64,000 nucleotides of DNA from Paenibacillus sp. IHBB 10380 (GTDB taxonomy: Bacteria > Bacillota > Bacilli > Paenibacillales > Paenibacillaceae). Position 1 is the first letter of the stretch. Each line of letters opens with the position of its first letter. The DNA is taken from positions 3,844,001 through 3,908,000 of the forward strand of contig NZ_CP010976.1 of NCBI RefSeq assembly GCF_000949425.1, in the 5' to 3' direction. Below, one piece after another: positions 24,443-45,371 of this stretch. The translations under genes and the position numbers were made by a program. The notes beneath the pieces are model-generated. The model made no database searches. It was not told the DNA's origin and saw nothing but the letters and a program-made list of their open reading frames with translations.

Positions 24443-26248
24443 TTACATCTGAGCACCCCTTTGATAATTGAGTAGCTGCCTGAAGGTGCCTTTGCTCTCC
24501 TGCGACAGCTGCTGATAGCCGCCTTGCTGAATAACCTCACCCTGCTCCATGACAATCACCTGATCCGCATTGCGAATGGTAGATAGCCGGTGAGCGATGA
24601 CGATAATGGTCATGCTTCCTTTCAGAAGCTCCAGCGACTCTTGAATCAGCCGTTCGTTCTCACTGTCCAGCGCGCTTGTCGCTTCATCCAGCACAAGAAT
24701 AGCAGGACGCTTCAAGATCGCTCTTGCCAGCACAATCCGCTGCCGTTCTCCTCCTGACAACCGGATACCCCGGTCACCAATTACCGTATCCAGACCTTGC
24801 GGAAGCTTGCGCACAAATTCTTCAGAGGCCGAAAATTTCAAAGCTTTCCACAGCTCGGCATCATTAGCGAAAGGATCGACCAGCTTCAGATTATCCCGAA
24901 TGCTCTCATTGAAGAGAAAGGGATCCTGCGCCACATATCCGATCGAACTACGCAGAGACAGAAGTTGCAGCTCATCTCTAAGAGACACGCCGTCAATCAT
25001 CACCTGCCCATTCTCTGGATGAATCAGCCCCATCAACATATCGATGAGCGTGCTTTTGCCCGCACCTGATTTGCCAACGATTGCCGTCATGCGGTTAGCA
25101 GGAATATGTATATTAATGTCACTCAAAGCGAATACGAGTGTATTGGAATCGTATCGGTAGTTCACATCCCGAAATTCTATTCCGTCCTGCATATTCAAAC
25201 GGGCAGGTTCACTCATAGAGGCAATTTCTCCGATTTCCCTGTCTGCCTCGTATTCCATTTGCAGCTTGCGCATCGCTTGAAAGGCTGGAAAATTGGATAC
25301 AAGCTGCTCGGTATTCGATTGAATGCCAATAAACCTCGGCCACAGCCGCGAGAAGATAAGAACAACGATAATTAATTGTTCAGCTGGTGTATGGATAACC
25401 TCAAGTGCCAGATAGACGAAACCGGCAACTAATACAACAGCGGATAGGCGATAAATAAGCTGAGACAGAGAATTAACCCTCCCCAATTGGATAAAGTTAT
25501 TTTCCATTTTTTCAGACAGATTTTGGAACCAGTAAATATGAGACTGCTCCAGTCTATTGCTTTTAATATCCTTAATACCATTGAAATGATCGCTGATCCC
25601 TGCAAAATAGTGCTTAGACAGTTCTGTTGTCTGTTCACCAATAAGCTTCGACTTCTTAATGAATTTACGTGAGTAAAGAGCTAGTAGCCCGCCGCTGACC
25701 AGAACAACCAACGTTAGTAGAGGAGACAACCATAAGGCAAGGCCAATCTGTATGATTGTGAAAATTACGGAAGAAATCATCTGCAAGAATAAGGAAGTGC
25801 CGTAATTTACGCGCCCGAGTTCATTAGACATAATATGGTTAAAGTCTGACTTGCGCTTGCGAAGGTAGAACTCCCATTTCGCTTGTAGCAATCCTCGATA
25901 CGTCTCGATCCGAAGCGTACGAATAAACCCTTGTAGAATCCTCGAATTCAACAAGGTCTGACTTCGTTGGAGCAGTGCCTGGCCCCCCACAATGACGACA
26001 TATACAGCCAGCACAATTGGCAAATTCAACTCAAACGACCATGACTCGATTAGGGCTAGAAGAGAAGAGATCAGCGGTATTCCATCCATATTCATTTGAA
26101 ATACACCTATTATGCTGAGCAGGGGAACGATCAAATAAATGCCAATGCCATCCAATAAACTTATTAGCAGAGTCAGCGACATATTGATGTACAGTCTGAT
26201 CCCTGCGACATGATGCATTTTACGAATAAAATAAAATAGATCCTTCAT
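24443..26248 (-). CDS. padeD: Lasso peptide ABC exporter (fused TMD-NBD)
   Basis: 601-aa exporter half-transporter. About six membrane helices (residues 20-310) precede an ATPase domain (about 350-595) with Walker A GKSGAGKST, signature LSGGERQR, Walker B VLVLDEATSALD and the H-loop IAHRLST. There is no N-terminal C39 peptidase, as expected where leader cleavage is done by a separate B2 protease. It follows B1-B2 by 22 nt, so it most probably exports the mature lasso peptide and may give self-immunity. Confidence 0.9.
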   Translation of the reverse strand: MKDLFYFIRKMHHVAGIRLYINMSLTLLISLLDGIGIYLIVPLLSIIGVFQMNMDGIPLISSLLALIESWSFELNLPIVLAVYVVIVGGQALLQRSQTLLNSRILQGFIRTLRIETYRGLLQAKWEFYLRKRKSDFNHIMSNELGRVNYGTSLFLQMISSVIFTIIQIGLALWLSPLLTLVVLVSGGLLALYSRKFIKKSKLIGEQTTELSKHYFAGISDHFNGIKDIKSNRLEQSHIYWFQNLSEKMENNFIQLGRVNSLSQLIYRLSAVVLVAGFVYLALEVIHTPAEQLIIVVLIFSRLWPRFIGIQSNTEQLVSNFPAFQAMRKLQMEYEADREIGEIASMSEPARLNMQDGIEFRDVNYRYDSNTLVFALSDINIHIPANRMTAIVGKSGAGKSTLIDMLMGLIHPENGQVMIDGVSLRDELQLLSLRSSIGYVAQDPFLFNESIRDNLKLVDPFANDAELWKALKFSASEEFVRKLPQGLDTVIGDRGIRLSGGERQRIVLARAILKRPAILVLDEATSALDSENERLIQESLELLKGSMTIIVIAHRLSTIRNADQVIVMEQGEVIQQGGYQQLSQESKGTFRQLLNYQRGAQM

Positions 26249-26270
26249 TAAGAATAACCCCTTATGCGGA

Positions 26271-26753
26271 TTACCGCCTCATAGTCGCTAGAGTTTCAGC
26301 CTGTTTACCATTCCCGAAAATCCCTACGACCGCATACCTTTCGTGTCCTTCTTTACCTGTTAATATGTAAGTGCCGCTACGCAGCCAAGCATGCGCAACC
26401 ATCTGTCCCTTGTCATCCCGGCCGCTTCCCAGATACAAGGTGCTTGGAATTCCTCTTCGCTCAAGCATCTTCATCGCGGCGATGGCCTTGACCAAGCACT
26501 GGCTCTCCCACCATGTTACTCGGCTCATTGCATGGACGGCCTTCGACACTTTACGCAGCAGTAAGAAGTCGTGCTCCGTATAGCTCGTATACGGCGTTTC
26601 CTTCATATATTCCCCAAAGGAAGGAGCTACTTTGGAGAAAGGCAGTAGCTTAAGCATCCTCCCCCACGCCAAATAGAAATAAGCTTCTGCGAACATCCGC
26701 TTTACATCAAGAGGATAAGTACTAAATCTGCGCACTTTCTTATACAAGCTCAT
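26271..26753 (-). CDS. padeB2: Lasso peptide leader peptidase B2 (transglutaminase-like)
   Basis: 160-aa B2 protein, start ATG at 26753 overlapping the B1 stop (TAATG). The longer ORF to 26825 overlaps B1 and is unlikely. Catalytic Cys86 is in WWESQCLVKAIAAM and His121 in GQMVAHAWLRSG, the family's conserved C...HAW arrangement. A clear third Asp of the triad about 12 residues after the His is not obvious here. It cuts the precursor after the leader, delivered by B1, before the cyclase closes the ring. Confidence 0.9.
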   Translation of the reverse strand: MSLYKKVRRFSTYPLDVKRMFAEAYFYLAWGRMLKLLPFSKVAPSFGEYMKETPYTSYTEHDFLLLRKVSKAVHAMSRVTWWESQCLVKAIAAMKMLERRGIPSTLYLGSGRDDKGQMVAHAWLRSGTYILTGKEGHERYAVVGIFGNGKQAETLATMRR

Positions 26754-27046
26754 TATTGCTTTCTCACCTGTACGAGTCCTTCGGCTGCAAGCTGATGCAG
26801 GAATGTGTATACTTGCTGCTCGCATACGTCAGGTTCGATTTCATACTCCATCACTAATTGCTCAACCATGCCAGCAATGGTGGCATGTGAAGCAACAAGC
26901 TCCCATATCCGGCCACCGATCTGACCGAGATTATAGTATTTTCCGTTTTCGATGCTCAGCATCACTTTCTCGCCATCCATATCGCTTACCAGGAAACCTT
27001 CAGATTGTAAGATAAGATCATCAGCTGCGATTAATTCAATGCTCAT
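26753..27046 (-). CDS. padeB1: Lasso peptide RRE protein B1 (PqqD-like)
   Basis: 97-aa PqqD-like RiPP recognition element with the typical stretch ENGKYYNLGQIGGRIWELV. It binds the leader of the precursor through the YxxPxLxxL-type motif and presents it to B2. The start has GGAGG nearby. The stop overlaps the B2 start. The precursor gene is not here but about 17 kb away on the other strand, an unusual separation. Confidence 0.92.
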   Translation of the reverse strand: MSIELIAADDLILQSEGFLVSDMDGEKVMLSIENGKYYNLGQIGGRIWELVASHATIAGMVEQLVMEYEIEPDVCEQQVYTFLHQLAAEGLVQVRKQ

Positions 27047-27138
27047 GAATAGTAGCCTCCTCTATTGAAATAAAATACATAATTCCACATGATATAAATT
27101 GTCATTAATTTGAAATTAGGGAAAGTATCTCACAACGT

Positions 27139-28368
27139 TTATACGGATTGTTGTTTCATACGCCGCCAGAACCATAGAAAAGGCCGAAGTGGGAAATAGA
27201 GAAAATGGAGCGATTTAGGTAGTGGTAACAATATGGCATCTCGTGAGCTAGGATGAAGCCTGTTTAACAAGTAAGCTATTTTCTGTTTTCCCGACATCAA
27301 TGAAAATAGGTAGCGATTATAATGCCGTGCTACACTTTTCTCCGGTACCGGGTTTAATTTAACTATTCTTTTAATATAATAGAGGGCCATTTCTGCTAGT
27401 CGATGAGATTTAGAACTAATCGTTAATAATTCTAAATCATGAGGAATCTCCGTTGAAAGCAGGTTCGATAATAAGATGAATGCCTGCCCTGCGTTATGCT
27501 GTCCTCCATATTGATCGAAATGAATTTTCATATTTCCACTGCTTATTTTAGGTAGCAACCGTTCAATATCAATTAACCAACGTAATCGAAACCAGCCATG
27601 CCTAGCACCATGGTCCGTAAGATAGTAGAGCAGATCTTCATTTCCCAAATAGTGAAAAGTTTGATTGGATGTCACATCATTTTTACGTTCCCACAGTTGA
27701 TCGAATGAGAATGACTCGCTGAAATGAGGATTCAATCGCCAGTGAATTTCAACTTGTGCAAAGTGCTCCTTATGCTCGAAGGATAGGTGATGTGATTTCT
27801 TCTTCCAATTGTCCAATATATGCTCATCCTTCGACTCGTAACCAAGCTGTGCCAATATTTCCTCTGCCTTCTCCACGTCTTCTGCATGAACTAGAATATC
27901 TAGATCTTTGGATGTCCTGTGCGCCAGATCTCCATATAGCTGTATAGCAAGAATAGGCCCCTTCAACAAAAGGGTACGTATTCCACTGTTGGTTAATGCT
28001 TTGCAAATATGACTCATTTCCCTGCTAAGATGCAGCATCTTAATTGTGTTGTTATTATATTGATGATGAAGTGTTTCCATAACGTTAGCTGGAATGAGTG
28101 AGGGCTCAAGTCCTTTCAATTTCAAATAGACAAGAGGATAAACACGATGATGCACAACAAGCTTCACAAACAATTTCCAGTCCAAATTGGAGGTGTTTTG
28201 CTTAACGATAATCTCATCCAGCAAATCATCGCGTAAAATAAATATTAAAAATAATAATTCTTTTGATACATCACTCAGGTCCAATTTAATTGCATCTAAT
28301 ATCAATGTACCCACCCCACTATCTAACAGATAGATTTTGTCATAACGAAATAATCGGCACTTGTTCAC
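27139..28368 (-). CDS. Nucleotidyltransferase-family protein of lasso cluster
   Basis: 409 aa, NTP_transf_5-like. Core motif LLLKGPILAIQLYGDL...RTSKDLDILVHAED carries the metal-binding DxD (DLDIL). Such proteins occur in paeninodin-type lasso clusters beside the HPr-kinase-like enzyme, where a tailoring role has been proposed. The annotated GTG start at 28368 has only a distant GAGG; a TTG at 28305 (GGGGTGGG 6 nt upstream, protein beginning LILDAIKLDLSD) is the better candidate. It sits between the last glycosyltransferase and B1. Confidence 0.8.
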   Translation of the reverse strand: MNKCRLFRYDKIYLLDSGVGTLILDAIKLDLSDVSKELLFLIFILRDDLLDEIIVKQNTSNLDWKLFVKLVVHHRVYPLVYLKLKGLEPSLIPANVMETLHHQYNNNTIKMLHLSREMSHICKALTNSGIRTLLLKGPILAIQLYGDLAHRTSKDLDILVHAEDVEKAEEILAQLGYESKDEHILDNWKKKSHHLSFEHKEHFAQVEIHWRLNPHFSESFSFDQLWERKNDVTSNQTFHYLGNEDLLYYLTDHGARHGWFRLRWLIDIERLLPKISSGNMKIHFDQYGGQHNAGQAFILLSNLLSTEIPHDLELLTISSKSHRLAEMALYYIKRIVKLNPVPEKSVARHYNRYLFSLMSGKQKIAYLLNRLHPSSRDAILLPLPKSLHFLYFPLRPFLWFWRRMKQQSV

Positions 28369-28391
28369 TCACGATGTCATCCTCAATCAAT

Positions 28392-29501
28392 TCACTGCCT
28401 GTCTGCACAGACCATAAGACCATCAATACTGGACTGCAGCCGTTCTATAAATAAATGCTCACTGAATTTCTCAGCATGCTGCCGAATAAGTTCTGGATTC
28501 CAATGATATTGATCGAACCGTTCGATCGTTGCCATCAATGAGCTTACCGACTGCTCCTCGAAAAATAACCCTGTCTGTTCAGCTACAACCGTGTCCAGGG
28601 CTCCGCCCACACAATAAGCAATGATCGGCCTGCCGCATGCATTGACTTCAAGCGGTGTTATGCCAAAATCTTCAATGCCGGGAAAGATCAGCGCTTTGCA
28701 ATGCTGCATGTAACGGACGACCTCTTCATCACTTCTCCTCCCAAGAAAAGTAACGGTATCGTCTGCAAGCTGCTCAAGCCTCTGCCGATCTGGGCCATCT
28801 CCAACTACGAGCAAACGCTGACCCATCCGGGTACAAGCCTCTACGGCCAAATCAATTTTTTTGTACGATACCAACCTGGAGACAACAAGAAAATAATCCT
28901 CTGGCTCCCCTTCATTGACGCTAAACCGGCTAATTTCTACGGGAGGGAAAATAATCTGGGCATTCATTCCATAACAATCTCTGATTCGCTCTTTCACAAT
29001 GGTAGAATTAGCAATCAGGTGATCAACCCACTTGGAATTGTTCTTATCCCATGTCTGAAGAGGGTAGATCAACCATTTCGCAAGTTTTTTCACATAATTC
29101 GGCACTTGAACGCTCTCCATATACGCTTCATAATTCCATGCAAATCGCATGGGTGTATGGCAGTAGCAGATATGGACACTCTTCCTATCCTTACGCACCC
29201 CTTTGGCATAAGCACTGCTGGAACTGAGAATGAGGTCATAACCCTTCACGTTCATTGAACGTACCGCGAACGGGTATAACCAGAAGAACATTTTGAATTT
29301 TCCTAATATTCCTGGAATTCGCTGCATCCAAGACGTCCTGATGTCAGCGTCCTTTAATTCTGGAAAAAGTTTATTTCGATCTACAATCGTTGTATAAATC
29401 GGTGCTTCGGGGAACATTTTGTGGAATACAGCCACTACCCGTTCCGCGCCGCCCATTTGATTGAGATAATCATGCACAATGGCTACTTTCAGATCCCGCA
29501 T
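28392..29501 (-). CDS. GT4 glycosyltransferase
   Basis: 369-aa GT-B fold glycosyltransferase, WbaZ/mannosyltransferase-like (KVAIVHDYLNQMGGAERVV at the N-terminus). The sugar-nucleotide site appears as FPGIEDFGITPLEVNACGRPIIAY (EX7E-type). Adds one sugar to the polyprenyl-linked repeat unit; the sugar cannot be specified. Its ATG touches the stop of the next gene upstream (1-nt overlap), a tight operon. Confidence 0.9.
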   Translation of the reverse strand: MRDLKVAIVHDYLNQMGGAERVVAVFHKMFPEAPIYTTIVDRNKLFPELKDADIRTSWMQRIPGILGKFKMFFWLYPFAVRSMNVKGYDLILSSSSAYAKGVRKDRKSVHICYCHTPMRFAWNYEAYMESVQVPNYVKKLAKWLIYPLQTWDKNNSKWVDHLIANSTIVKERIRDCYGMNAQIIFPPVEISRFSVNEGEPEDYFLVVSRLVSYKKIDLAVEACTRMGQRLLVVGDGPDRQRLEQLADDTVTFLGRRSDEEVVRYMQHCKALIFPGIEDFGITPLEVNACGRPIIAYCVGGALDTVVAEQTGLFFEEQSVSSLMATIERFDQYHWNPELIRQHAEKFSEHLFIERLQSSIDGLMVCADRQ

Positions 29502-30697
29502 TACATCATCTCCCTTGCACGCTGATGTTCCAACAATTTGCCGCCGGGTCTCGCCAATAGCTGCTGATAAATCAATTCGATCTTTTGAGACGTCTGTACG
29601 ATGGAGAACCTATCTTTTGCCTGCTCCTGTCCATTGTGACTAAGCGTAGACCATACGATCTCATCATCGAGCACCTGACGGATGCAATGTGTGAGTTTCT
29701 CGATATTTCCGATCTCATACATCAATCCACTCACACCATGTTGAATGATCTCTTGTACGCCTCCCCCTCGTGTCCCCACGACAGGCGTCCCTTGTGACAT
29801 AGCTTCAATAATGACCCTGCCGAAGGGTTCATTATCTGAACATAATAAAAGGAGATCTGCTGCACAGCAGATCTCCAATACATCTTCTCTGAATCCTGTA
29901 AACATAACTTTATCTTCAAGGTTTAAAGATTTAACCTTCTCTTTCAGTTTGTCGAGATATCGTTCGTTCTCTTGCCTAAACTTGGCTTCTCCGACAATCC
30001 ATAGAACCGTGTTCCGCTCCTCACGAACAAGACTGGCGAATGCTTCTATTGCATCTTCTTGTCTCTTCCACGGAGCAATCTGACCTATAATCACCAACAC
30101 TCGTGCTTCCTGCGGTGTTCTTAATTCTAAACGGATTGTTTCTCTTAACACTTGTCTTACCTCGGAATTAAAACTCCTTAGTTCCACACCGTTATGCACG
30201 AGATGGCACCGTCCTGCTACAGAAGGATGATCTATACCTTGAATGACAGATTCGGAAATACCGATGAGTGCCTGAGCGCTACTCCCTGCGAACTTTCGAA
30301 CGAGCATGCCAATATAACCCTGCGGAGGCATGTCTCGTAGATGCCACACAACCGGTAATCGGTGGTACCATCTGAATAAGCCTGCCATAATTCCTGCTCT
30401 TATAGAATTGGCATGTATGAGATCCACCCGACTTTTTTTCATAAGAAGAGCAAGCCTCCATCCTGCCCACAGCATCCCAATAACATAGATAACAAGAAGG
30501 AGCGGATTTCTGGTCATTCTCGCCCGGAAGCTGGGCAGAGCAACGACTTCGAGTCCTTGGCTGCGCGCTCTCTGCAGCAAATCTCCCTCTGGTGCAAACA
30601 ATATCGGATGGGCTTTTGTTATATGTTTTGCAGTCAACAACAGACTGATCTCCGCTCCGCTGATTGTACTCGTATGGTTATAAAAGGCGATTCTCAT
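29501..30697 (-). CDS. GT4 glycosyltransferase
   Basis: 398 aa. N-terminal Rossmann-type domain (FYNHTSTISGAEISLL) and C-terminal nucleotide-sugar domain with EPFGRVIIEAMSQGTPVVGTRGGGVQEII. Overlaps the neighbouring gene by 4 nt. Part of the polysaccharide operon, specificity unknown. Confidence 0.9.
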   Translation of the reverse strand: MRIAFYNHTSTISGAEISLLLTAKHITKAHPILFAPEGDLLQRARSQGLEVVALPSFRARMTRNPLLLVIYVIGMLWAGWRLALLMKKSRVDLIHANSIRAGIMAGLFRWYHRLPVVWHLRDMPPQGYIGMLVRKFAGSSAQALIGISESVIQGIDHPSVAGRCHLVHNGVELRSFNSEVRQVLRETIRLELRTPQEARVLVIIGQIAPWKRQEDAIEAFASLVREERNTVLWIVGEAKFRQENERYLDKLKEKVKSLNLEDKVMFTGFREDVLEICCAADLLLLCSDNEPFGRVIIEAMSQGTPVVGTRGGGVQEIIQHGVSGLMYEIGNIEKLTHCIRQVLDDEIVWSTLSHNGQEQAKDRFSIVQTSQKIELIYQQLLARPGGKLLEHQRAREMM

Positions 30698-31884
30698 CTT
30701 CTGAATTCCTTTCTTTTACCAATTTCTTCTGTGAATACATTGGTCACAGCTTCCGCGACTCTCCCCCATGTATATTGATTCAGTACATGTTCTCTGCATG
30801 CTTCCCGAGAAGGAAGGAATGAATCCTTATTCAGGACATCAATAATCTTCTTACTTATAGACTCAGATGTTCCGTCTTTAAACATTAAATCGTCGGATAT
30901 TTGATGTAAAATCTCTTTCGTTCCCCCGTAAGGAGTTCCCAACACTGGCGTTCCACAGGCAAGAGACTCTACGGTAATAAGACCGAAGCCCTCTAGTGTG
31001 AGGGTTGGAACTAAGCTAACATCTGCTGCTTGGTAATACTGCACAAGTTCCTCATTTGAAATTCTGCCGAGCAATTTAACATTGGAAGAAAGCCCAAGTT
31101 GATTGATTAGTGCTTCATATTCCGCTCGCATTGGTCCATCTCCTCCGATGAACAATCGAACATTAGGGGATATACGGACAACATCAGCCATGGCATGAAT
31201 CAAACGGTCAATCCCCATCCTTCGGACCAGCCTTCTTATGCAGAAGAGCAAAGGTTGATTAGACGATATGCCTAGTTGTGTTCTTAGTTCCTCACGATTC
31301 GGATGAGGTCGGAAGCGATTATGATCAACTGCACCTGGTATAATGTGAATTTTCTTCTCATCCACTCCGTAGGTTTCGGTCAATATATCTCGAAAGTACT
31401 CGCTAAGTACAATAAAGCTATCAGAACGGCGGTAAGTCAATTGTTCTACTTGCTTCTTCATCCACAACCTTGCTTCCTTAACGACTTTAGTCGCTGAATT
31501 CGTCTGTTGTACCTCCGTTTCCAATGCCCAAGGACCATGGAAATGAGAAACAATTGGTATGTGTGATGGAATCAGATTTCTCGTGACCATCGTAGTATAG
31601 AAAGCAAAATGGGGATTGAATACGTCCGGATGAAAAGAGCCCATCGCTTGATGTGTATGTTTCCGAATGGATTTCATTCGGGATAGATAATGTTTAATGT
31701 CCATTTCATGCGTAACATTTCTAATATTAAGATCAGTACTTATATGAGACCCTTTTGGTGCAAATACGAAGCCAAGTTCGGAATGACCATGTTCTTTCAT
31801 GGCAGTAGAGTAATCGGCAAAATAACGATTCAGCCCACCATACTGGACATCTATCCAACCCATTCCAGTCGAAAGTACATTCAT
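30694..31884 (-). CDS. GT4 glycosyltransferase
   Basis: 396 aa, GT-B fold. N-terminal MGWIDVQYGGLNRYF, then GAVDHNRFRP and the donor-site segment LEGFGLITVESLACGTPVLGTPYGGTKEIL. It stops 4 nt inside the next glycosyltransferase (overlap). Confidence 0.9.
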   Translation of the reverse strand: MNVLSTGMGWIDVQYGGLNRYFADYSTAMKEHGHSELGFVFAPKGSHISTDLNIRNVTHEMDIKHYLSRMKSIRKHTHQAMGSFHPDVFNPHFAFYTTMVTRNLIPSHIPIVSHFHGPWALETEVQQTNSATKVVKEARLWMKKQVEQLTYRRSDSFIVLSEYFRDILTETYGVDEKKIHIIPGAVDHNRFRPHPNREELRTQLGISSNQPLLFCIRRLVRRMGIDRLIHAMADVVRISPNVRLFIGGDGPMRAEYEALINQLGLSSNVKLLGRISNEELVQYYQAADVSLVPTLTLEGFGLITVESLACGTPVLGTPYGGTKEILHQISDDLMFKDGTSESISKKIIDVLNKDSFLPSREACREHVLNQYTWGRVAEAVTNVFTEEIGKRKEFRR

Positions 31885-31911
31885 AATTATCTCTCTTTTC
31901 TTCAGTATGAT

Positions 31912-32988
31912 TTAACTAATTAGTAGTTCCTCATAAATCTTTAACGTGTCTCTCGCCACTCTTTCTACTGAATAATATTCCAGTCCTTGCAGAGCACGCT
32001 TTCGGTATTTGTCACTCATTTCTGAGTTCTGAAGCATCGAAATGATAGCTTCCGCCAACCTTTCTGGTGATTTAGGCGGTACTAACATACCTGATTCCCC
32101 GAAATCAAGAGCCTCAGGAATTCCATCAACATCAGTTGCGACGATCGCACAACCCGCCTCCCGAGCCTCAATCAATACTAGGCCAAATGATTCTTTGTGC
32201 GATGCTAATACAAAAATATCAGCTGCTTCCATATAATTGTGCGGATTAGATTGATAGCCCATAAAGTGAATGTTATCTTTTCCAATAGATTGGTTAGCTT
32301 TCAATTCAAATTTAGATCTGTCTGGACCCTCGCCTAAAACATACAAATTAGCTTCAGGATATTTCGCAACAACAATTTCGAATGCTTCAATTAAATCAAT
32401 AATTCCTTTCCGTTCATACAGGCCAGCAACCGTTACTATGGATAGCCCTTTGAGACATGCTCCGCCCTTATCACCTTTCCGCGAACTTCCAATCGTTCCA
32501 TTTAAAACAATGTGAAGTTTTTGCTTCTGCACCCCTCGGCTCACCATTGATGTGGCTACCGCCTGACTTACAGCTATTACTGAATCGCCAACTTTCATAA
32601 AGTTCGCGCTCTTCTGAAACTCATTATGTACATGCGTTACAATTTTATATTTCTGGAACCCTTTCAAATATCTTGAGAGCAAAGCTCCAGTCATCATATG
32701 TGCATGGATTATATCTGGCTTAAATTGTTTGACCATTTTCCGAAAATTAAAAAAAGCCTGCATCATTTGTGCGGGCTTTCTCGTCTGATCAAGTTTATAA
32801 TGTTGAATATTGTTCTTTAACAGCAGTTCTATATACTCACCACCCTCAGATGCAACCGCCACATTGTGACCTAGTTTTGCTTGCTCGCAAGCTAAGTCGA
32901 TCATGACATTTACGATTCCGTTACCGCACTGCTTGACATGATTGGCTATATGAAGAATATTCATGCTCTCACCCCATTTCGATTTCAC
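31912..32988 (-). CDS. GT4 glycosyltransferase
   Basis: Probably about 350 aa from the internal ATG of MNILHIANHVKQCGNGIVNV; the extra eight residues upstream are less likely. Donor site HKESFGLVLIEAREAGCAIVATDVDGIPEAL. Co-directional with the operon. Confidence 0.9.
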   Translation of the reverse strand: MKSKWGESMNILHIANHVKQCGNGIVNVMIDLACEQAKLGHNVAVASEGGEYIELLLKNNIQHYKLDQTRKPAQMMQAFFNFRKMVKQFKPDIIHAHMMTGALLSRYLKGFQKYKIVTHVHNEFQKSANFMKVGDSVIAVSQAVATSMVSRGVQKQKLHIVLNGTIGSSRKGDKGGACLKGLSIVTVAGLYERKGIIDLIEAFEIVVAKYPEANLYVLGEGPDRSKFELKANQSIGKDNIHFMGYQSNPHNYMEAADIFVLASHKESFGLVLIEAREAGCAIVATDVDGIPEALDFGESGMLVPPKSPERLAEAIISMLQNSEMSDKYRKRALQGLEYYSVERVARDTLKIYEELLIS

Positions 32989-33011
32989 TTTAATCGGTTT
33001 ATTAGCTCCTA

Positions 33012-34355: not shown

Positions 34356-34379
34356 ATGTTTTATCCCTTCAGGCCTGCT

Positions 34380-36301: not shown

Positions 36302-36302
36302 G

Positions 36303-37745: not shown

Positions 37746-38629
37746 CTACCTTTATATGAAATAATTATTTTTTTAAAACTATTGTATTTCTCTTTTGGCA
37801 GTATTCTAATAAATTGAACAACTCCGGGTGAGGACTTGCTTCCAATCAGAATGATCCATCCGATAAATAACAATCTCCTTTTCCAATTCAGATGTTTAAG
37901 TAAAGTATACGTCTCATTATGTGCCGTATTGAAAAAGGCTGTTTCATTGAAGCTATTTCTTTTATCCTCATCAAATCTTTCAGCTGGAAAATGATCAACG
38001 CATACTAGTGGATCATAAATAAGTTTCCAGCCTTTCTTTTTAACGGATAGACTGAACTCCATTTCATTATAAATTTGAGCACCTGTACCCTTTAACTTCT
38101 CGTCAAATTTCAAATCTAGAATTGCATCTTTCCTAAAGCTCATATTGGCACCTTTAAGAATATCCACCTCACGAGTGTTTCCCAGTCCAATATGATGATT
38201 CCCTATGATTCGGCCATAGGGCTTTATAATACCAACCTGTTGTTTAATAGCTGGAACCGGTTCGCCACGAAAGTGTACGATATCTCTACCTCCAACTCCG
38301 CCTATATCAGGTTTCGTTATATAATAATTCTCTATTTTTTCAAGCCAATTAGAATAGGGAACGGTATCATCATCGGTTAAAACCACAATAGATCCTGTGC
38401 TTTGCTTAATCCCCAAATTCAATGCAGCTATCACGCCTGTCTGTTCTATGAGAACAACCTTTAAGTTTTTTATGGAAATAGATGATAAATATTCCAATGT
38501 ACTGTCATCTGTGTTTCTTACAACGACTATGATTTCATCAGGGTATCTCGTTTGTTTTTTAATTCCTTCTATACAGTTCAATAAAGCGTCTACCCTTTGA
38601 TACGACGGTACAATTACACTAATTTTCAT
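37706..38629 (-). CDS. GT2 family glycosyltransferase
   Basis: 307 aa, GT-A fold. MKISVIVPSYQRVDALLNCI at the N-terminus, DXD-type motif VLTDDDTVPY, then GVGGRDI and a C-terminal part with a possible membrane-associated helix. Transfers a sugar to the growing lipid-linked unit. Confidence 0.9.
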   Translation of the reverse strand: MKISVIVPSYQRVDALLNCIEGIKKQTRYPDEIIVVVRNTDDSTLEYLSSISIKNLKVVLIEQTGVIAALNLGIKQSTGSIVVLTDDDTVPYSNWLEKIENYYITKPDIGGVGGRDIVHFRGEPVPAIKQQVGIIKPYGRIIGNHHIGLGNTREVDILKGANMSFRKDAILDLKFDEKLKGTGAQIYNEMEFSLSVKKKGWKLIYDPLVCVDHFPAERFDEDKRNSFNETAFFNTAHNETYTLLKHLNWKRRLLFIGWIILIGSKSSPGVVQFIRILPKEKYNSFKKIIISYKGRWGGWKTWRGSLE

Positions 38630-38694
38630 ATTAATCCCTCTAATTGAATTTATATTAATACAAGAAACTTGGAGATATGATTAGAAAGAGCACC

Positions 38695-39585
38695 TCAGCG
38701 ATTTATTCTGACAAGATGTTCACGTTGGAGAATACTTTCCATACCTTGCAGCAGCGGTTTACGCAGCTCTTCATTCTGAAGCGCAAAGTTAAGCGTAGTC
38801 ATTATAAAGCCCATTTTCTCGCCTACATCATAACGAATTCCCTCGAAGTCGTATGCATACACTCCTTGACTCTCATTCAGCTTTTGTATAGCATCCGTCA
38901 ACTGAATTTCTCCACCAGCCCCTTCCTCCTGATATTCCAGAAACCCGAATATTTCCGGAGTCAATATGTATCTGCCCATAATCGCCAGATTAGACGGTGC
39001 TTTGCCTGCTGACGGCTTCTCTACCAAATAATCCACCTCATATAAACGGCCGAACCTTTCCAGTGCGGCTACTATGCCATAGCGTTGCGTTTGGTCACGG
39101 GGAACCGTTTGAACGCCAATCACAGATTTTTGTACTTGCTCGAACTGCTCCGCCAGCTGCCGGATGCAAGGTGTCTGTGATTGTACGATATCATCCCCGA
39201 GTAGCACGGCAAACGGCTCGTTACCGATAAAGTTACGGGCGCACCATACGGCATGGCCAAGTCCTTTCGCTTCCTTTTGGCGTATGTAATGAATTTCTAC
39301 ATTTGAGGAACGGCGCACTTCGTCAAGCAGATCAAACTTTCCTTTGCTGAACAAATTATTTTCTAGCTCGAAAGCATGATCAAAGTGGTCTTCAATGGCG
39401 CGTTTACCTTTGCCTGTCACAATAATAATATCCTCAATGCCTGAAGCCACCGCTTCTTCCACAATGTATTGAATAGTGGGTTTATCGACAATCGGAAGCA
39501 TTTCCTTCGGCATGGCTTTTGTTGCGGGTAAGAAGCGCGTCCCAAGACCCGCTGCAGGAATAATTGCTTTTTTCACTTTTTTCAT
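38695..39585 (-). CDS. galU: UTP-glucose-1-phosphate uridylyltransferase
   Basis: Makes UDP-glucose for polysaccharide. 296 aa with the hallmark [41 protein letters not shown], and [10 protein letters not shown] for UDP-glucose binding. All family motifs are present. It lies between the modulator/kinase pair and the glycosyltransferases, in the same direction. Confidence 0.96.
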
Positions 39586-39847
39586 TCTTCATCCACTACC
39601 TCTCTCTATTTATTCTTTTGACTAATGCCAATATGAATGTCTTAGTAGTAGAAAAGCCTAGCTATATACTCTTCGATTAGAAAAGAACATAGCTAAACTT
39701 TCTAAATTAGGGCATTCAACCCTGCCTCACATCACACCCTTGACAATGATGTCTAAGGTCCTTAAGACCCACAGCGTGAACGAGTGTCTACAGTGATAGA
39801 GGTGCAGTAGACATTACCTTTACTCCCGATAGTACCTCGCTAGTTGT
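39586..39847. other. Intergenic region between galU and the tyrosine kinase gene
   Basis: 262 nt in the middle of the operon, the longest gap in the series. There is no ORF with a start signal and no clear T-rich terminator; it may hold a secondary promoter for galU and the genes after it or an RNA element. Confidence 0.4.
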
Positions 39848-40537
39848 CTAACCTTTCATTCCGTAATAATTCATATAGAAGTTCGATTGGTTATCTCTAT
39901 TCATACGGTTAAGCACAATACCCAACAATCGAGCGTTGACATGATCCAACTGCCCTTTAGCTTTCTTCAAATGAACTTTCTTCACCTTCCCTGCGGCAAC
40001 CACCATAATAACGCCATCGCACAAAGTGCTGGCTATGACACTATCCGTTACAGACAATACCGGCGGGGAATCCATGAGAATAACATCATATTCTTGTTCC
40101 AGCTGCTCCAGCATTTCCCGCATTGCTGTAGAATCAATGAGATCTGACGGATTTCCAGGTATCGGTCCGGAAGAAAGCAGCGATAAATGACTGACCATAG
40201 TTTCCTGGATCGCGTCTTGTACACTTGTGTGTCCTGTTAACACCGTGCTTAAGCCTTGACGATTCGATTGGGAGAAAATATGGTGCAGTGACGGCTTACG
40301 CATATCCATATCAATAAGAAGCACATTCTTACCTTCCTGTGCATAGGTGATTGCCAAGTTGCTTATCGTTGTGGTTTTCCCTTCTCCTGCCTGAGCGGAA
40401 GTGACCATGATGGTCTTCAATGCCTGATCTATAGAAGAATAATGGATATTGGTTCGAAGCAGCCGATACACTTCCGATATAGGCGATTCGGGATTCATGG
40501 AAACAATTAAGCTGCTATCATTGATTGATCGACGCAT
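39848..40537 (-). CDS. BY-kinase, CpsD/EpsB-type
   Basis: 229-aa cytoplasmic tyrosine autokinase from ATG 40537 (GGTGAG 7 nt upstream). Walker A SAQAGEGKTT, Walker A' LLIDMDMRKP and Walker B VILMDSPP. The C-terminus NFYMNYYGMKG is a short Tyr cluster for autophosphorylation. It works with the adjacent membrane modulator to set chain length and synthesis. Confidence 0.93.
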   Translation of the reverse strand: MRRSINDSSLIVSMNPESPISEVYRLLRTNIHYSSIDQALKTIMVTSAQAGEGKTTTISNLAITYAQEGKNVLLIDMDMRKPSLHHIFSQSNRQGLSTVLTGHTSVQDAIQETMVSHLSLLSSGPIPGNPSDLIDSTAMREMLEQLEQEYDVILMDSPPVLSVTDSVIASTLCDGVIMVVAAGKVKKVHLKKAKGQLDHVNARLLGIVLNRMNRDNQSNFYMNYYGMKG

Positions 40538-41273
40538 ACTTGCTCTCACCTACTTTTGGTTTTTGTAATGCCTTCGTCCTCCGGGAGATCTTCAGATCAC
40601 CCTTTGTGATCTTCCCTACAACGGCAAGCACTGAAACGTCCATGATTTCAACAATTTCGGCTTCTGTCTTCAATGTATCGTCAAGATAATCGAGCAGAAA
40701 TACCAGTCCAATCGCCAGCATAAGCGAAACAACAAGGCTGATTAGAATGTTCATGATCGGATTAATATTGATCGGAGAAGGGGATGCTGTCGTGTCTGCC
40801 TCGCTTAAGATGGTGATGTTGTCTGCATTCATAATGTGAGGTATTTCAGCTTTAAATACTGTGGAGACAGCATTTACGATTGCGGCGGCCTTGGCGTAGG
40901 ATGTATCCTCATAGACTAAATTCATCACTTGTGAATTGTTTGCCGAAGTGACAGATATCTTTGAAGACATTTCCCTGGAATTTGATCCTAATTCAGGGAA
41001 TTTTTCAACAACTTTATTCATAATGGCAGATGATCTGATAATCTCTTTATAAGAATTAATAAGGATGATGCTTGTTTGTATAGTACCCGCATTAAGTGTT
41101 TCCACTTCACCCACCGAAGCTGACTGATTAACGATAAGCTTGGCGTTGGCCGAATAGATCGGTATCGTAAAGTACAAGCTTTTGACTAATGTCGCTGCGA
41201 TCGCGATGATAATAATGGCTACTATCAGCCACCATTTCTTCTGAATAATTCTAAAGTACTGTTTGAGTTCCAT
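40518..41273 (-). CDS. Polysaccharide co-polymerase, CpsC/EpsA-type (Wzz)
   Basis: 251-aa membrane modulator, two helices (about 15-38 and 175-195) around an extracellular domain, and a cytoplasmic tail that activates the BY-kinase. First gene of the leftward locus; overlaps the kinase gene by 20 nt. The upstream region carries several GATAC-N5-GTATC palindromes. Confidence 0.92.
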   Translation of the reverse strand: MELKQYFRIIQKKWWLIVAIIIIAIAATLVKSLYFTIPIYSANAKLIVNQSASVGEVETLNAGTIQTSIILINSYKEIIRSSAIMNKVVEKFPELGSNSREMSSKISVTSANNSQVMNLVYEDTSYAKAAAIVNAVSTVFKAEIPHIMNADNITILSEADTTASPSPININPIMNILISLVVSLMLAIGLVFLLDYLDDTLKTEAEIVEIMDVSVLAVVGKITKGDLKISRRTKALQKPKVGESKYASINQ

Positions 41274-41390
41274 CCCCTTGCAACCCCTCGCTCAATTTGT
41301 AGAATATGTGTAGCAGAAAGGGTTGTATTTGACTTCCATCTTAGATGATCTGACAAATATTCCCCGAATTCACTCACAGAAACTTTTTGT

Positions 41391-41405
41391 GATACATTAT
41401 GTATC
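41391..41405. promoter_or_regulatory. GATAC-N5-GTATC palindrome, site 1
   Basis: GATAC ATTAT GTATC, exact inverted repeat, 118 nt before the polysaccharide modulator gene. Shared with the lasso promoter region. Confidence 0.7.
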
Positions 41406-41425
41406 ATTTATATCCCATACTTTAC

Positions 41426-41440
41426 GATACGGTTTGTATC
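41426..41440. promoter_or_regulatory. GATAC-N5-GTATC palindrome, site 2
   Basis: GATAC GGTTT GTATC, 35 bp centre to centre from site 1. Confidence 0.7.
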
Positions 41441-41695
41441 ATGTCAAGAATATATTTCAACCTGTTTTTCTGTTAGCGCTTACTAATTAGCTTCATGATT
41501 TGATACATCAAAGAAGCTGATTCTTTAGAGTCCCCACAGTACTTCTAATAAAACAGTCAATTTCGATCTTGAACCGGTACTAGAACTCCTATATACTGAC
41601 TTGATTAGTTACAATTCGTATCAACATTTTTATCATATTCCGATATCATAAAATCATGTATATAATAGAAGCGCTTTCACAAAAGGAGATGTCAT
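41441..41695. other. Divergent control region between polysaccharide operon and VanZ gene
   Basis: About 420 nt in all (41274-41695) without a gene: it contains palindromes 1 and 2, a degenerate third (41608-41622), AT-rich promoter sequence and the VanZ ribosome binding site. Confidence 0.55.
41608..41622. promoter_or_regulatory. Degenerate GATAC-type palindrome, site 3
   Basis: GTTAC AATTC GTATC, one mismatch to the motif, 74 nt before the VanZ start. Confidence 0.45.
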
Positions 41696-42118
41696 ATGCG
41701 TATTATTCTTACTGTTATATGGGCTTTCGTCCTGTTCGTTTTCACTTGCTCGGTTAACCTTCATCTGCTCATCAAATATCATATTGTTGATTTCCATTTC
41801 AATCCGATTCCGGATTGGTCGGAGCTGTTTAGGCTTGATTTTCAATGGACAAATCATGATTGGGTTCAGCGAAAAATAGGACATTTCTTCGGTTTCTTTA
41901 TCCTCGCTCTTCTCGCATCAAACTTTGGTAAATACAAGTCCGCCTTCTACCTCTCTGTCTTCTATGCAGCCCTAACCGAAATTCTTCAGCTATTCTTCTT
42001 CCGGGGCGGTCGGGTCTATGACATTGCCAGCGATTCAGCCGGCATTCTCTTTGCTTATTTATTATGTCTAATCCTGTTCCGCAAAAGCTCAAGGCGTACA
42101 AGATACATAAACAAATAA
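41696..42118 (+). CDS. VanZ-family membrane protein
   Basis: 140 aa, four hydrophobic segments, with the VanZ-like pattern RKIGHFFGFFILALLASNF ... EILQLFF..GR..D..SD..G. AAAGGAG lies 7 nt before the ATG. The family is linked to low-level teicoplanin resistance but its function is not known. It stands alone between the polysaccharide operon and the lasso cyclase gene, in the latter's direction. Confidence 0.82.
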   Translation: MRIILTVIWAFVLFVFTCSVNLHLLIKYHIVDFHFNPIPDWSELFRLDFQWTNHDWVQRKIGHFFGFFILALLASNFGKYKSAFYLSVFYAALTEILQLFFFRGGRVYDIASDSAGILFAYLLCLILFRKSSRRTRYINK

Positions 42119-42171
42119 AATAAATTATGAATTTTTTTATTCATTATACATATTATTAGAAAAATTAACTT

Positions 42172-42186
42172 GATACATATCGTATA
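42172..42186. promoter_or_regulatory. GATAC-type palindrome, site 4 (lasso promoter)
   Basis: GATAC ATATC GTATA, one mismatch to the motif, 74 nt upstream of the cyclase start. Confidence 0.6.
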
Positions 42187-42205
42187 CTTGTTATATGATG
42201 ATGAC

Positions 42206-42220
42206 GATACAAATTGTATC
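42206..42220. promoter_or_regulatory. GATAC-N5-GTATC palindrome, site 5 (lasso promoter)
   Basis: GATAC AAATT GTATC, exact, 34 bp from site 4, 40 nt before the cyclase start. Sites 4-5 have the same 34-35 bp spacing as sites 1-2. Confidence 0.7.
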
Positions 42221-42259
42221 AATTACTATAATTGATCGTTCATAACGGAGGAAGACCGA

Positions 42260-44209
42260 ATGAGTGCAATAGCCGGTATTTATAGATTCAATGGAGAACC
42301 CGTTCAAATCGAACAAGGCGGCTTTATGATGGAAGCGCTGAAGCAGTATCCGGCTAATCAGAGCGCACTATGGCATAAGGATCACATTATGCTTGGATGC
42401 CATGCACAATGGATCACAGAGCAATCCATTCACGAAACACTGCCTTACTACGACCCGAATCGAGGACTTGCCATAACGGCAGATGCCATCATTGACAACC
42501 GGGATGAATTAATGGATCAATTGCAAGTCTTACATAACCTTAGGAAAAACATGACAGATAGTGAAGTTATACTGCTCGCGTATGAGCAGTGGGGTGAACG
42601 AATGCCCGAACGATTGGTCGGAGATTTTGCCTTCGTAATCTGGGATGAGAGAAAGAAGCACCTTTTTGGAGCAAGGGATTTCTCAGGTGCTCGTACGCTC
42701 TATTATCACCGCAATGAAGAACAGTTATCTTTCTGCACCGTGGTCAATTCATTGTTGTCATTGCCTTATATACATAAAGAGCTTAACGAAGAATGGCTCG
42801 CCGAATTCCTCGCGATTAGCGGTGTTTTCGAACCACCAGATCTTTCAACTACTATTTATAAGCATATTGAGCAGTTACCGCCGTCTCATACGATAAGCAT
42901 CAAGCATAATAGGGTAGTTATCACCAAATACAATGCCCTTACGGATATAACTCCTTTGCAGCTTGCATCATCGCAAGATTATGAAGAAGCGTTCCGGGAC
43001 GTGTTCAATAGAGCCGTTACGACAAGGCTCCAACGAAGCAACCGAAATGTCGGTTCTCATCTTAGCGGAGGATTAGACTCAGGAGCAGTCGTTAGCTTTG
43101 CTGCTAGAGCCTTGAAGAAGGATAACCGTACACTTCATACATTCAGTTACGTCCCTGATGATGGATTCGTCGATTGGACACCGAAGCACAGATTTGCGGA
43201 CGAAAGACCCCTCATACAGCAGACGGTACAGTATGTAGGGAACATTAACGATAATTACTTGGATTTCAAAGGAAGAAGCTCTTTCTCGGAAATCGATGAT
43301 TGGCTTGATATTATGGAGTCGCCCTACAAGTTCTTCGATAATTCATTCTGGTTGAGAGGAATCTATGAACAAGCACAGCAGCGCGGAATCGGTATTCTGC
43401 TCAATGGTGCCAGAGGGAATTACAGTATCTCTTGGGGTCCCGCAATCGAGTATTATGCCAAACTTATGAAGAAGTTCGAATGGCTTCGCTTATCTAGAGA
43501 AATCAATCTCTTCAGCAAGAATGTCGGAGTCGGACGCAAGCGTGTCTATTCCATTGTCAGCCGTAAGGCATACCCGATTCTGGAACGAGTAAGACCTTCC
43601 AGAGTACCCTATGTTTATCCGCAATTAATAAATACAGATTATGCGAAGCTAACCGGAATCTATGACAAGCTTTACGATCATAAATTCACTGGTATTGGAT
43701 CTACAAAAGATCTTCCAGCAGATCCGCTTGAAGCGAGAAAGCAACATTTCGATCGTGTAAATATGTGGAGTATGACAGGGACAAGTGGGTGTAAGCTCTC
43801 TCTTCGTTATTCGGTCTGGAGCCATGATCCAACCAATGATCTACGGGTAATTCGATTCTGCCTCTCAACTCCGATGGAACAATTCGTTCAGGATGGCATC
43901 GATCGATCATTAGTTAGACGGTCTACGAAAGGCTGGCTCCCTGATTCCATCCGGCTCAATCAACGTACCCGAGGGACACAAGCAGCCGATTCTATTCATC
44001 GAATGTCTAAGGAATGGCCTGTTTTTTTCGAGGAGCTTGAGCATCTGAGCCGTGATTCTCGAATGCAGCATATCATCAACATGCCTGTCTTCCATGATGC
44101 ACTAGCAGAAGCCTGCAATGGCCTTAATCCGAATCAGGCCTACAGTCCTACCATCAAGCTGTTAATGCGCAGCTTAATCGTGTACCGATTTCTTCAAAAA
44201 AACTTTTGA
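42260..44209 (+). CDS. padeC: Lasso cyclase (asparagine synthetase-like C protein)
   Basis: 649-aa macrolactam synthetase. An N-terminal glutaminase-like domain starts MSAIAGIYRF; the residue after Met is Ser, not the catalytic Cys of true AsnB, so glutamine hydrolysis is not expected. The C-terminal synthetase domain has the ATP-pyrophosphatase motif SHLSGGLDSGAV at about residue 270. It adenylates the side-chain carboxylate of the ring Asp and joins it to the new N-terminus. ATG at 42260 preceded by GGAGGAAG. It is followed 15 nt later by the precursor gene. Confidence 0.94.
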   Translation: MSAIAGIYRFNGEPVQIEQGGFMMEALKQYPANQSALWHKDHIMLGCHAQWITEQSIHETLPYYDPNRGLAITADAIIDNRDELMDQLQVLHNLRKNMTDSEVILLAYEQWGERMPERLVGDFAFVIWDERKKHLFGARDFSGARTLYYHRNEEQLSFCTVVNSLLSLPYIHKELNEEWLAEFLAISGVFEPPDLSTTIYKHIEQLPPSHTISIKHNRVVITKYNALTDITPLQLASSQDYEEAFRDVFNRAVTTRLQRSNRNVGSHLSGGLDSGAVVSFAARALKKDNRTLHTFSYVPDDGFVDWTPKHRFADERPLIQQTVQYVGNINDNYLDFKGRSSFSEIDDWLDIMESPYKFFDNSFWLRGIYEQAQQRGIGILLNGARGNYSISWGPAIEYYAKLMKKFEWLRLSREINLFSKNVGVGRKRVYSIVSRKAYPILERVRPSRVPYVYPQLINTDYAKLTGIYDKLYDHKFTGIGSTKDLPADPLEARKQHFDRVNMWSMTGTSGCKLSLRYSVWSHDPTNDLRVIRFCLSTPMEQFVQDGIDRSLVRRSTKGWLPDSIRLNQRTRGTQAADSIHRMSKEWPVFFEELEHLSRDSRMQHIINMPVFHDALAEACNGLNPNQAYSPTIKLLMRSLIVYRFLQKNF

Positions 44210-44224
44210 AAGGAGGTGATACAT

Positions 44225-44350
44225 ATGAAAAAAGAGTGGAACGTACCTGCATTGGAAGTACTTAGTATAAACATGACGATGGCTGGTCCTGGTGATTCAA
44301 GACCGGATGGGGTACAACCGGACCCTGATGAAAGTGTACACTACAGCTAA
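44225..44350 (+). CDS. padeA: Lasso peptide precursor, paeninodin-like
   Basis: 41 codons. Leader of 19 residues, MKKEWNVPALEVLSINMTM, with the recognition pattern W..P.L..L (Trp in place of the usual Tyr) and Thr at leader position -2. The core of 22 residues starts AGPGDSRPD: Ala1 joined to Asp9 would give a 9-residue ring, as in paeninodin. The core ends DESVHYS, so the last residue Ser22 fits the kinase's phosphorylation site. AAAGGAGGTGA lies 6 nt before the ATG. Compared with paeninodin the core is one residue shorter and differs in the ring (Asp5, Arg7) and tail; it is probably a new variant. Confidence 0.93.
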   Translation: MKKEWNVPALEVLSINMTMAGPGDSRPDGVQPDPDESVHYS

Positions 44351-44378
44351 ACATAAGATATCATTCTGATTGAAGCAC

Positions 44379-44418
44379 AGCCCTTATAGACCTTAATGGG
44401 TATAAGGGCTATCTTATT
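44379..44418 (+). terminator. Hairpin between precursor and kinase (partial terminator)
   Basis: Perfect 10-bp stem AGCCCTTATA / TATAAGGGCT with a 12-nt loop followed by ATCTTATTTTATT. It would let most transcripts end after the precursor and less kinase be made (inference). Confidence 0.7.
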
Positions 44419-44450
44419 TTATTCGTATATTAAGCAATGGGGTGAGAACA

Positions 44451-45371
44451 GTGGTTCATACAATTAGCAATACTATATATAAAGCCTTCGGGTATTCCAT
44501 ACAAAGTGACATCCCCCTGCCTGAACTGCAGCAGATAGACAATCCTGAAAGTGATATCAATATTACCATCCATTGTGCTGACTTAACCGAAAGATGGTTA
44601 GAACTTTCTGTCTCACCTAAGAAATTCGTAGTGACCAAGAATTTGATTATGTTCTGGATACCGGATCTGGCCGTCTTCGCCGTGGAAGGTGGAACAACCA
44701 TCACTATTTCACCCGAGAAAGGTGCGGACGAAGATAAAATTCGACTATATATTCTTGGATCATGCATGGGCGCTATTTTACTACAGAGAAGAATCCTCCC
44801 TTTGCATGGCAGTGCGGTAGTTATTGATCATAAAGCTTACGCTTTCATAGGTGATTCCGGCCACGGCAAGTCTACCCTTGCATCCTCTTTTATCCAGCGG
44901 GGATTCCAGCTGTTAACCGACGACGTCATCGCCGTTACTCTGGATATCCACAATATCCCTTATGTGACGCCAGCTTATCCTCAACAGAAGCTTTGGCAAG
45001 AGAGCCTCGATACCTTCGGCATGAATTCGGATCAATTCCGTCCGTTATTCGAACGCGAAACCAAATATGCAATCCCCGTTGCCTCCCACTTTTCAGCCGA
45101 CACCCTTCCTCTAGCCGGTATATTTGAGCTGATCAAGATGGATTGCAGCCACACCGGGATTCGAGCAATAGAGAAGTTAGAGCGGCTTCCGCTCCTGTAT
45201 CGTCATACATACCGTAATTTTTTTCTTCCAGACAGCGGGTTAACCCAATGGCATTTTGAGACGACAGCCCGTATGTCCGGCAGTATCGAAATTTACCAAC
45301 TGCGGCGCCCACTAAACGAGTCTACAGTTCATCAGTTGACCGATATGATTCTATCTGCAATCGGGAAATAA
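44451..45371 (+). CDS. padeK: HPr-kinase-like lasso peptide kinase
   Basis: About 306 aa. The start is probably GTG 44451 (GGGGTGAG 5-6 nt upstream; another GTG at 44442). It has a P-loop GDSGHGKSTLASSF and LLTDDVIAV, like the catalytic core of HPr kinase/phosphorylase without the N-terminal domain. In the paeninodin system the homologue phosphorylates the C-terminal Ser of the precursor. It comes right after the precursor gene here, and the conserved C-terminal Ser supports the same reaction. Confidence 0.9.
   Translation: MVHTISNTIYKAFGYSIQSDIPLPELQQIDNPESDINITIHCADLTERWLELSVSPKKFVVTKNLIMFWIPDLAVFAVEGGTTITISPEKGADEDKIRLYILGSCMGAILLQRRILPLHGSAVVIDHKAYAFIGDSGHGKSTLASSFIQRGFQLLTDDVIAVTLDIHNIPYVTPAYPQQKLWQESLDTFGMNSDQFRPLFERETKYAIPVASHFSADTLPLAGIFELIKMDCSHTGIRAIEKLERLPLLYRHTYRNFFLPDSGLTQWHFETTARMSGSIEIYQLRRPLNESTVHQLTDMILSAIGK

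Follow-up and report, generated by a model that had tools for sequence, protein, structure and literature searches.

Evidence for a lasso peptide pathway arranged as two probably co-regulated blocks around an exopolysaccharide operon in Paenibacillus

RESULTS

A lasso pathway flanks a polysaccharide operon

The 64,000-nucleotide (nt) stretch of Paenibacillus sp. IHBB 10380 analyzed here (G000:C1:3844001-3908000, hereafter the window) carries the genes of a lasso peptide pathway in two separate places. A cyclase, a precursor, and a kinase gene occupy 42.3-45.4 kb on the plus strand, and genes for a nucleotidyltransferase (N), a leader-binding protein (B1), a leader peptidase (B2), and an exporter (D) occupy 24.4-28.4 kb on the minus strand, at the distal end of a leftward Wzx/Wzy polysaccharide operon. 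This layout had been read from the letters in an original prediction, and our open reading frame (ORF), Pfam, and NCBIfam scans of the window agree with it in both genes and coordinates. We propose, with a probability of roughly two in three, that these genes constitute one paeninodin/pseudomycoidin-type lasso pathway, organized as two co-regulated blocks around an exopolysaccharide operon. The apparent shared control of these blocks, and the fact that N, a probable sugar-attaching enzyme, changes along with the polymer genes, suggest that peptide and polymer are made, and perhaps decorated, together.

On the plus strand, the asparagine-synthetase-type lasso cyclase C (42260..44209) matches NCBIfam NF033535 with 370 bits, below the 525-bit cut-off. 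The precursor A (44225..44350) was read directly from the sequence; its leader, MKKEWNVPALEVLSINMTM, is of the WxxP form, and its predicted core, AGPGDSRPDGVQPDPDESVHYS, has Asp9 as the ring residue and a C-terminal Ser. K (44442..45371) is HPr-kinase-like, with weak matches that stay below curated cut-offs (26.4 bits against a Pfam cut-off of 33.3, over about 50 residues of the P-loop region), and is predicted to phosphorylate the C-terminal Ser of A. Between A and K (positions 44375-44430), an inverted repeat and the T-rich sequence behind it may form an attenuator that determines the precursor:kinase ratio.

On the minus strand, the PqqD-like, leader-binding RRE protein B1 (26753..27046) and the leader peptidase B2 (26271..26825) score above cut-off against NF033536, the Bacillus-type lasso RRE model, and NF033537, respectively. 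D (24443..26248) was assigned as an ABC exporter from profile matches and is followed by a terminator-like hairpin (24374..24412, minus strand) that was read from the sequence and missed by a terminator scan. N (27139..28368) is a PsmN-like nucleotidyltransferase of the NTP_transf_5 family (PF14907) with an intact active-site motif, and a comparison with PDB sequences at E up to 0.1 returned no relatives. Its likely start lies near 28305. The 23-nt gap previously noted in front of N depends on the choice of start codon; homolog alignment suggests TTG at 28305, which widens the gap to 86 nt. B2 and a cyclase of the C kind each occur once in the whole genome, and the second complete B1-B2-exporter set that would have spoken against a single pathway was not found.

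The split frame is conserved in Paenibacillus and beyond

We sought C and B2 in 100 genomes of the genus, of which 72 carry C and 28 are without a lasso cyclase. By cyclase identity, the carriers comprise class A (at least 64%; 18 genomes, including that of the window), class B (about 48-52%; 43 genomes), and class C (about 35%; 11 genomes). C and B2 are split in every class A genome, lying 12-22 kb apart on opposite strands, and the arrangement is therefore more than chance. All 18 gene maps show the same frame, D-B2-B1-N-(variable cassette)-GalU-CpsD-Wzz and then, divergently, (VanZ)-C-A-K, with K kept throughout, which together with its position fits the kinase assignment; the comparison of gene order in related genomes that had been put forward as a check thus finds the split common to 18 class A species. 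A search for the W..P pattern between C and K recovered precursors in all 18 loci, each with Thr at position -2, Asp9, and a C-terminal Ser. Five class A genomes differ in the middle and two more in Wzx, and four have a nucleotide-sugar epimerase-type gene between N and B1. Class A genome G034 has an additional, more distant cyclase (44% identical) (G034:C13:6850-8790) with an operator (described below) 27-41 nt upstream of the start of the match and no B2 match near.

In class B, C and B2 lie within about 2 kb of each other on the same strand (43 genomes, read row by row from match tables); extra copies of C were seen in G029 and G089. Class C distances are 37-54 kb in seven genomes and 4 kb in two, and the genes fall on separate contigs in the remaining two. 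The class C break is located between D and B2 rather than between K and B1, with an eps-like locus filling the gap, and therefore represents a separate split event. These loci (L066-L087) form a second lasso lineage, divided by an eps-like locus of 33-50 kb. In G090, the one genome where both were identified, B2 has a SlrR/SinR-like gene as neighbor and B1 an Hsp90 gene; the other mapped class C loci have an ORF of 109-119 amino acids (aa) next to B2, at the position of the SlrR/SinR-like gene.

A search for C at E up to 1e-240 in a family sample of 295 genomes identified seven close cyclases outside the genus (G300, G110, G304, G195, G216, G176, and G158). G300, from another genus, keeps the frame without VanZ, GalU, or the EAR RNA described below. 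G110, from a third genus, also has the frame, with C preceded by an 8-kb insertion, an additional K next to B1, and another D following K. In G195 and G216, C-A-K-B1-D heads a polysaccharide operon, and B2 was not found in the 73 and 75 kb available from them. Cyclic di-GMP-II riboswitches (L149:2122-2205 in G195; L150:12464-12547 in G216) lie upstream of what seems to be a single unit running from C-A-K-B1-D into Wzz-CpsD-EAR-eps. The lasso clusters of G176 and G158, from another genus, are contiguous, and G304 is described below. A related-locus search of genome contigs gave a single match, in P. glacialis DSM 22343, which shares the frame.

A candidate palindromic operator is shared by both arms

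The 15-bp palindrome GATAC-N5-GTATC is the consensus of a candidate operator. By pattern search, the window has operator 1 (GATACATTATGTATC; 41391..41405) on the polysaccharide promoter side, operator 2 (GATACGGTTTGTATC; 41426..41440), an operator-like site with one mismatch upstream of VanZ (41608..41622), and operator 3 (GATACAAATTGTATC; 42206..42220) 54 nt upstream of C. When stretches of 250 nt upstream of each gene were searched in class A, the operator was found before Wzz in 18/18 genomes (17 within 250 nt; in G065 at 344), before C in 18/18 (14 exact, 4 with one mismatch), before VanZ in 17/17 (13 exact, 4 with one mismatch), and before B1 in 5/18 (4 exact). With one mismatch allowed, none precedes GalU, K, or D in any of the 18, and N is preceded once. 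The corresponding frequencies in a shuffled control of 3,000 stretches of 250 nt were 0.0003 for exact sites and 0.008 at up to one mismatch. Genome-wide, there are 11 exact operators in the window's genome versus 4 for a reversed control; three are in the lasso locus, and others lie upstream of two XRE genes and flank a second polysaccharide locus. The stricter pattern GATACANNNTGTATC gave 36 sites in seven class A genomes, with 0 in the reversed control, and 1, 0, and 2 sites in three further genomes.

From this positioning, we infer that an XRE-family protein binds GATAC-N5-GTATC. Of 15 XRE homologs, 12 have an operator no more than about 150 nt upstream. XRE orthologs (E up to 1e-50) were detected in all 18 class A genomes and in none of the 54 with another lasso type; G044, G058, and G089 carry weaker homologs (about 41-43%). 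None of the 11 class B and C regions tested has the operator. Outside the genus, it is found near C or B1 in G300, G304, and G158, the last also with an XRE homolog (66%) nearby, and the consensus is absent from the stretches read in G195, G216, and G176. In three class A genomes (G034, G004, and G012), the lasso locus itself has an XRE-family gene as a neighbor, near K.

An antitermination RNA and a conserved terminator may gate the distal genes

An EAR (epsC) RNA, a processive antitermination element, was identified at 39709..39819 on the minus strand (RF01735, 90.8 bits, E 1.8e-14). In all 18 class A loci, it lies between CpsD and GalU, the second and third genes, and it was found in none of the 11 class B and C genomes tested. 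Outside the genus, its position is unchanged in G110, and in G195 and G216 it follows CpsD. A LoaP antiterminator gene (L104:3326-3928, plus strand) was seen near a second XRE gene (4990-5226, minus strand) that has two operators directly upstream, and LoaP may be linked to the EAR-bearing operons.

Upstream of N-B1-B2-D, an intrinsic terminator (29851..29876, minus strand; 11-bp stem, then TTTTATTATG) lies inside the coding sequence of the glycosyltransferase gene GT4b. A stem of 10-11 pairs with a T tail is present in 12 of the 13 loci that have GT4b and has decayed in G004. Across those 12 loci, third-position identity in the terminator codons is 0.92 compared with 0.48 for the gene, ranking first of 390 windows. 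Overall, a scan for sigma-70 promoters and terminators was no richer than shuffled sequence (53 vs 54.6 and 11 vs 12.7), and therefore only this terminator, conserved across species, was used. In B. subtilis, full readthrough of the eps operon past internal terminators is reported to require EAR (PMC7858274).

N varies with the polysaccharide cassette

Given the frame, N tracks cassette content with a partial r of 0.783 (P 0.0001), and no significant positive link to the cassette was found for B1, B2, D, C, K, Wzz, or GalU. G028 and G300, which belong to different genera, have the seven other cassette genes all in common (62-79%), and their N proteins are reciprocally nearest to each other (62%).

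Contiguity is probably older, and compact relatives look like losses

The original prediction had offered, as an alternative, that an older lasso cluster had received the polysaccharide genes by insertion. Half of this holds up: contiguous clusters (43 genomes of the genus; G176 and G158 elsewhere) are placed around the class A clade in the cyclase tree, and therefore contiguity is probably ancestral. G110 is mislabeled as contiguous in that tree, a status that we rejected when more DNA showed the split. The other half fares less well, since the split is not local to the window's genome, occurring in 18 class A species and, in modified form, in two further genera, and since the compact relatives look like later losses.

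The N-C gap of G304 measures 1184 nt and contains no polysaccharide genes; it holds a piece of Wzz (57% over 47 aa, E 6e-14) directly against an end of CpsD, and a weak match to part of VanZ (17 aa, E 0.005). Compared with split G300 of the same genus, identity is 93-98% for D, B2, B1, and K, 81% for C, and 48% for N; G304 still has an exact operator in front of B1 and a site with one mismatch about 56 nt before C. The Wzz and CpsD scars therefore indicate that the polysaccharide operon was deleted secondarily, with both lasso blocks and an intact N retained. Compact G090 and G051 of class C are nested among split genomes in an rpoB tree built from a codon alignment, and the one eps gene tested has no copy in either genome at E up to 1e-150, fitting a loss of polysaccharide genes. 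Compact class C relatives were considered as empty ancestral sites and set aside because tree position and the G304 scars favor loss.

Insertion into a contiguous cluster, an accident tolerated since, is in our view somewhat unlikely. Besides the scars and nesting just described, one block must also have been inverted, and the lasso genes that head a polysaccharide operon in G195 and G216, where B2 was not found, raise the possibility that the association predates the split. Insertion would explain the origin only and is compatible with two co-regulated blocks.

Remaining features of the polysaccharide operon

Twenty ORFs between 24.4 and 48.4 kb were scanned with Pfam. The genes between the lasso blocks, all on the minus strand, encode Wzx, a Wzy_C protein, six glycosyltransferases, a GDSL protein, GalU, a CpsD-like protein, and Wzz. 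From the distal end, these are four GT4 glycosyltransferases of the cassette (GT4a-GT4d; 28392..32988), the Wzx flippase (33012..34355), a region with GT4e, the GDSL protein, the Wzy_C polymerase (36303-37745), and GT2 (34380..38629), a GalU-like nucleotidyltransferase (38695..39585; PF00483; the name GalU is our label), a CpsD-like kinase with a ParA/AAA_31-type P-loop (39848..40549), and a Wzz-like chain-length/kinase-activator protein (40518..41273). The VanZ-like membrane protein (41696..42118, plus strand) is present in 17/18 class A loci. Wzx, Wzy, Wzz, and glycosyltransferases together make this a Wzx/Wzy polysaccharide locus. Calling it complete, as had been done, goes too far: no initiating sugar-1-phosphate transferase (PF02397) was recognized among the 20 ORFs. 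A homolog of such a transferase is present in 15/17 other class A loci (identity tested on one member).

Adjoining K, positions 45506-48445 (minus strand) encode a 979-aa protein with weak pectate-lyase-like matches that possibly acts on the polysaccharide; its relatives sit between Wzz and VanZ in 10/18 class A loci. A second polysaccharide locus (G000:C1:3956753-3974865; L110, L111) lies outside the window, about 67-85 kb further along than the lasso locus. It has paralogs of Wzz, CpsD, and GalU, a separate EAR, operators at either end, and an XRE gene in divergent orientation, with no lasso genes recognized.

DISCUSSION

Coordinated production of peptide and polymer, as suggested in the original prediction, draws support from the sequence, in which the shared operator, EAR, and the conserved intragenic terminator tie both halves of the pathway to the polysaccharide operon; the same three features suggest selection on joint expression. 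In the mechanism that we propose, an XRE-type repressor, probably autoregulated, would bind GATAC-N5-GTATC at the divergent Wzz and VanZ/C promoters, and the polysaccharide and C-A-K arms would switch together via this shared operator. EAR, transcribed after CpsD, would carry polymerase through the GT4b terminator, and N-B1-B2-D would be well expressed only if the whole polysaccharide operon is read. K would phosphorylate the C-terminal Ser, B1 and B2 would take off the leader, C would close the A1-D9 ring, and D would export the product. N may add a cassette-matched sugar to the phosphoserine of the peptide; reviews describe PsmN as putting one or two hexoses on phosphoserine (PMC9266682, PMC8498205). 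A further extension, tentative and on balance unlikely, is that the lasso peptide is itself a component of the exopolysaccharide system, with N coupling its phosphorylated C terminus to the sugar or oligosaccharide of the cassette, each cassette bringing its own N, and the peptide-glycan conjugate being displayed or secreted in step with the polymer.

Several observations weigh against co-regulated blocks or a coupling of peptide to polymer. B1 of the window has no preceding operator, and G110 has the frame, yet no consensus operator occurs in its 88 kb. Three of the 15 XRE homologs are without a site (one of them only 32% identical; the stricter pattern was used for these three), and XRE orthologs are also present in 17 of the 28 cyclase-free genomes, so that the protein probably regulates polysaccharide genes in general. 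No EAR match in G300 reaches the gathering score, and no counterpart of the GT4b terminator was found in the five loci with other cassettes or in G300, by a strict scan that also missed the terminators after D. CpsD too tracks the cassette (partial r 0.595, P 0.0001), and N is therefore not unique in this respect; N also adjoins the cassette, which makes hitchhiking possible. The lasso blocks can be replaced separately, as in the sister genomes G070 and G032, which share the left block (distance 0.04) and not C-K (0.37). In P. alginolyticus, mass spectrometry is reported to have given no ions attributable to lasso or LPP products (PMC13381572).

Alternatively, the neighborhood would have no function and the locus would be a recombination hot spot, in which homologous recombination swaps cassettes between conserved flanks that happen to include lasso genes and N hitchhikes by the position of the breakpoints. 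The locus is indeed a mosaic: correlations with rpoB distances are weak (left block 0.41, C-K 0.22, Wzz block 0.41, N 0.10), and together with independent block replacement they imply roughly three exchangeable modules, apparently serving export and leader removal, the glycan together with N, and cyclase, precursor, and kinase. GalU, however, occupies the mirror-image edge of the cassette and does not track it (partial r -0.29), and G304 kept both lasso blocks and an intact N when its polysaccharide genes were deleted. The signs of selection on joint expression also run counter to mere exchange, as does the other lasso lineage, in which an eps-like locus interrupts the cluster at a different junction, and we regard a hot spot as rather improbable. 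That N-B1-B2-D serve another peptide (e.g., an LPP), with C-A-K using maturation genes elsewhere, is very improbable, for although LPP clusters, many of which have no cyclase, too carry an RRE, a kinase, an NTP-transferase, and an exporter (PMC13381572), the genome has no other B2, B1 matches the Bacillus-type lasso RRE model, the leader of A has the WxxP form reported for paeninodins (PMC13381572), both blocks are retained where polysaccharide genes were lost, and the distances of the two blocks correlate with each other (r 0.88).

Co-location of paeninodin-type clusters with capsule loci is already known (PMC13381572, 2026), and that report states that the biological role of paeninodins is unknown. 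In the literature text available to our search, we found no description of the split frame, its control by operator and EAR, or the exchange of N; a 2026 JACS paper on cebulassopin speaks in its title of lasso peptides from a "split biosynthetic operon." The frame, operators, antitermination gating, and cassette-linked enzyme turn the observation that such clusters are often near capsule genes into specific, testable predictions on the role and glycosylation of the peptide. Cluster-mining tools that assume contiguity may be misled, as B2 can lie 12-54 kb from the cyclase.

With paeninodin-type clusters (PadeA/C/K/B1/B2/D of Paenibacillus dendritiformis), the window pathway shares the cyclase, the putative HPr-like kinase, discrete B1 and B2, the exporter, the C-terminal Ser, and the WxxP leader. 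The original P. dendritiformis cluster is reportedly contiguous; the window pathway, unlike it, is split around a polysaccharide operon and adds N, the operator, and EAR. The putative kinase K and an annotated nucleotidyltransferase N are shared with the pseudomycoidin (psm) cluster of Bacillus pseudomycoides (PsmK, PsmN; the likeness to PsmN is by description alone). In contrast to psm, the window has its N within the polysaccharide operon, where the gene is exchanged together with the cassette. P. alginolyticus DSM5050 is reported to have paeninodin-like and LPP clusters embedded in capsule loci, with synchronous upregulation of pbaB1 (lasso B1), lppB, and an eps gene (PMC13381572); polysaccharide co-location, K, N, and an MsbA-like exporter are common to those clusters and the window (PMC13381572). 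Unlike the LPP clusters, the window has no SipW-like (SpI) peptidase or second RRE recognized among its 20 Pfam-scanned ORFs, no search having been aimed at them. Finally, the window operon resembles the eps operon of B. subtilis in having EAR between the second and third genes of a long polysaccharide operon with internal terminators, as described in PMC7858274, and differs from it in that its distal end is made up of lasso maturation genes.

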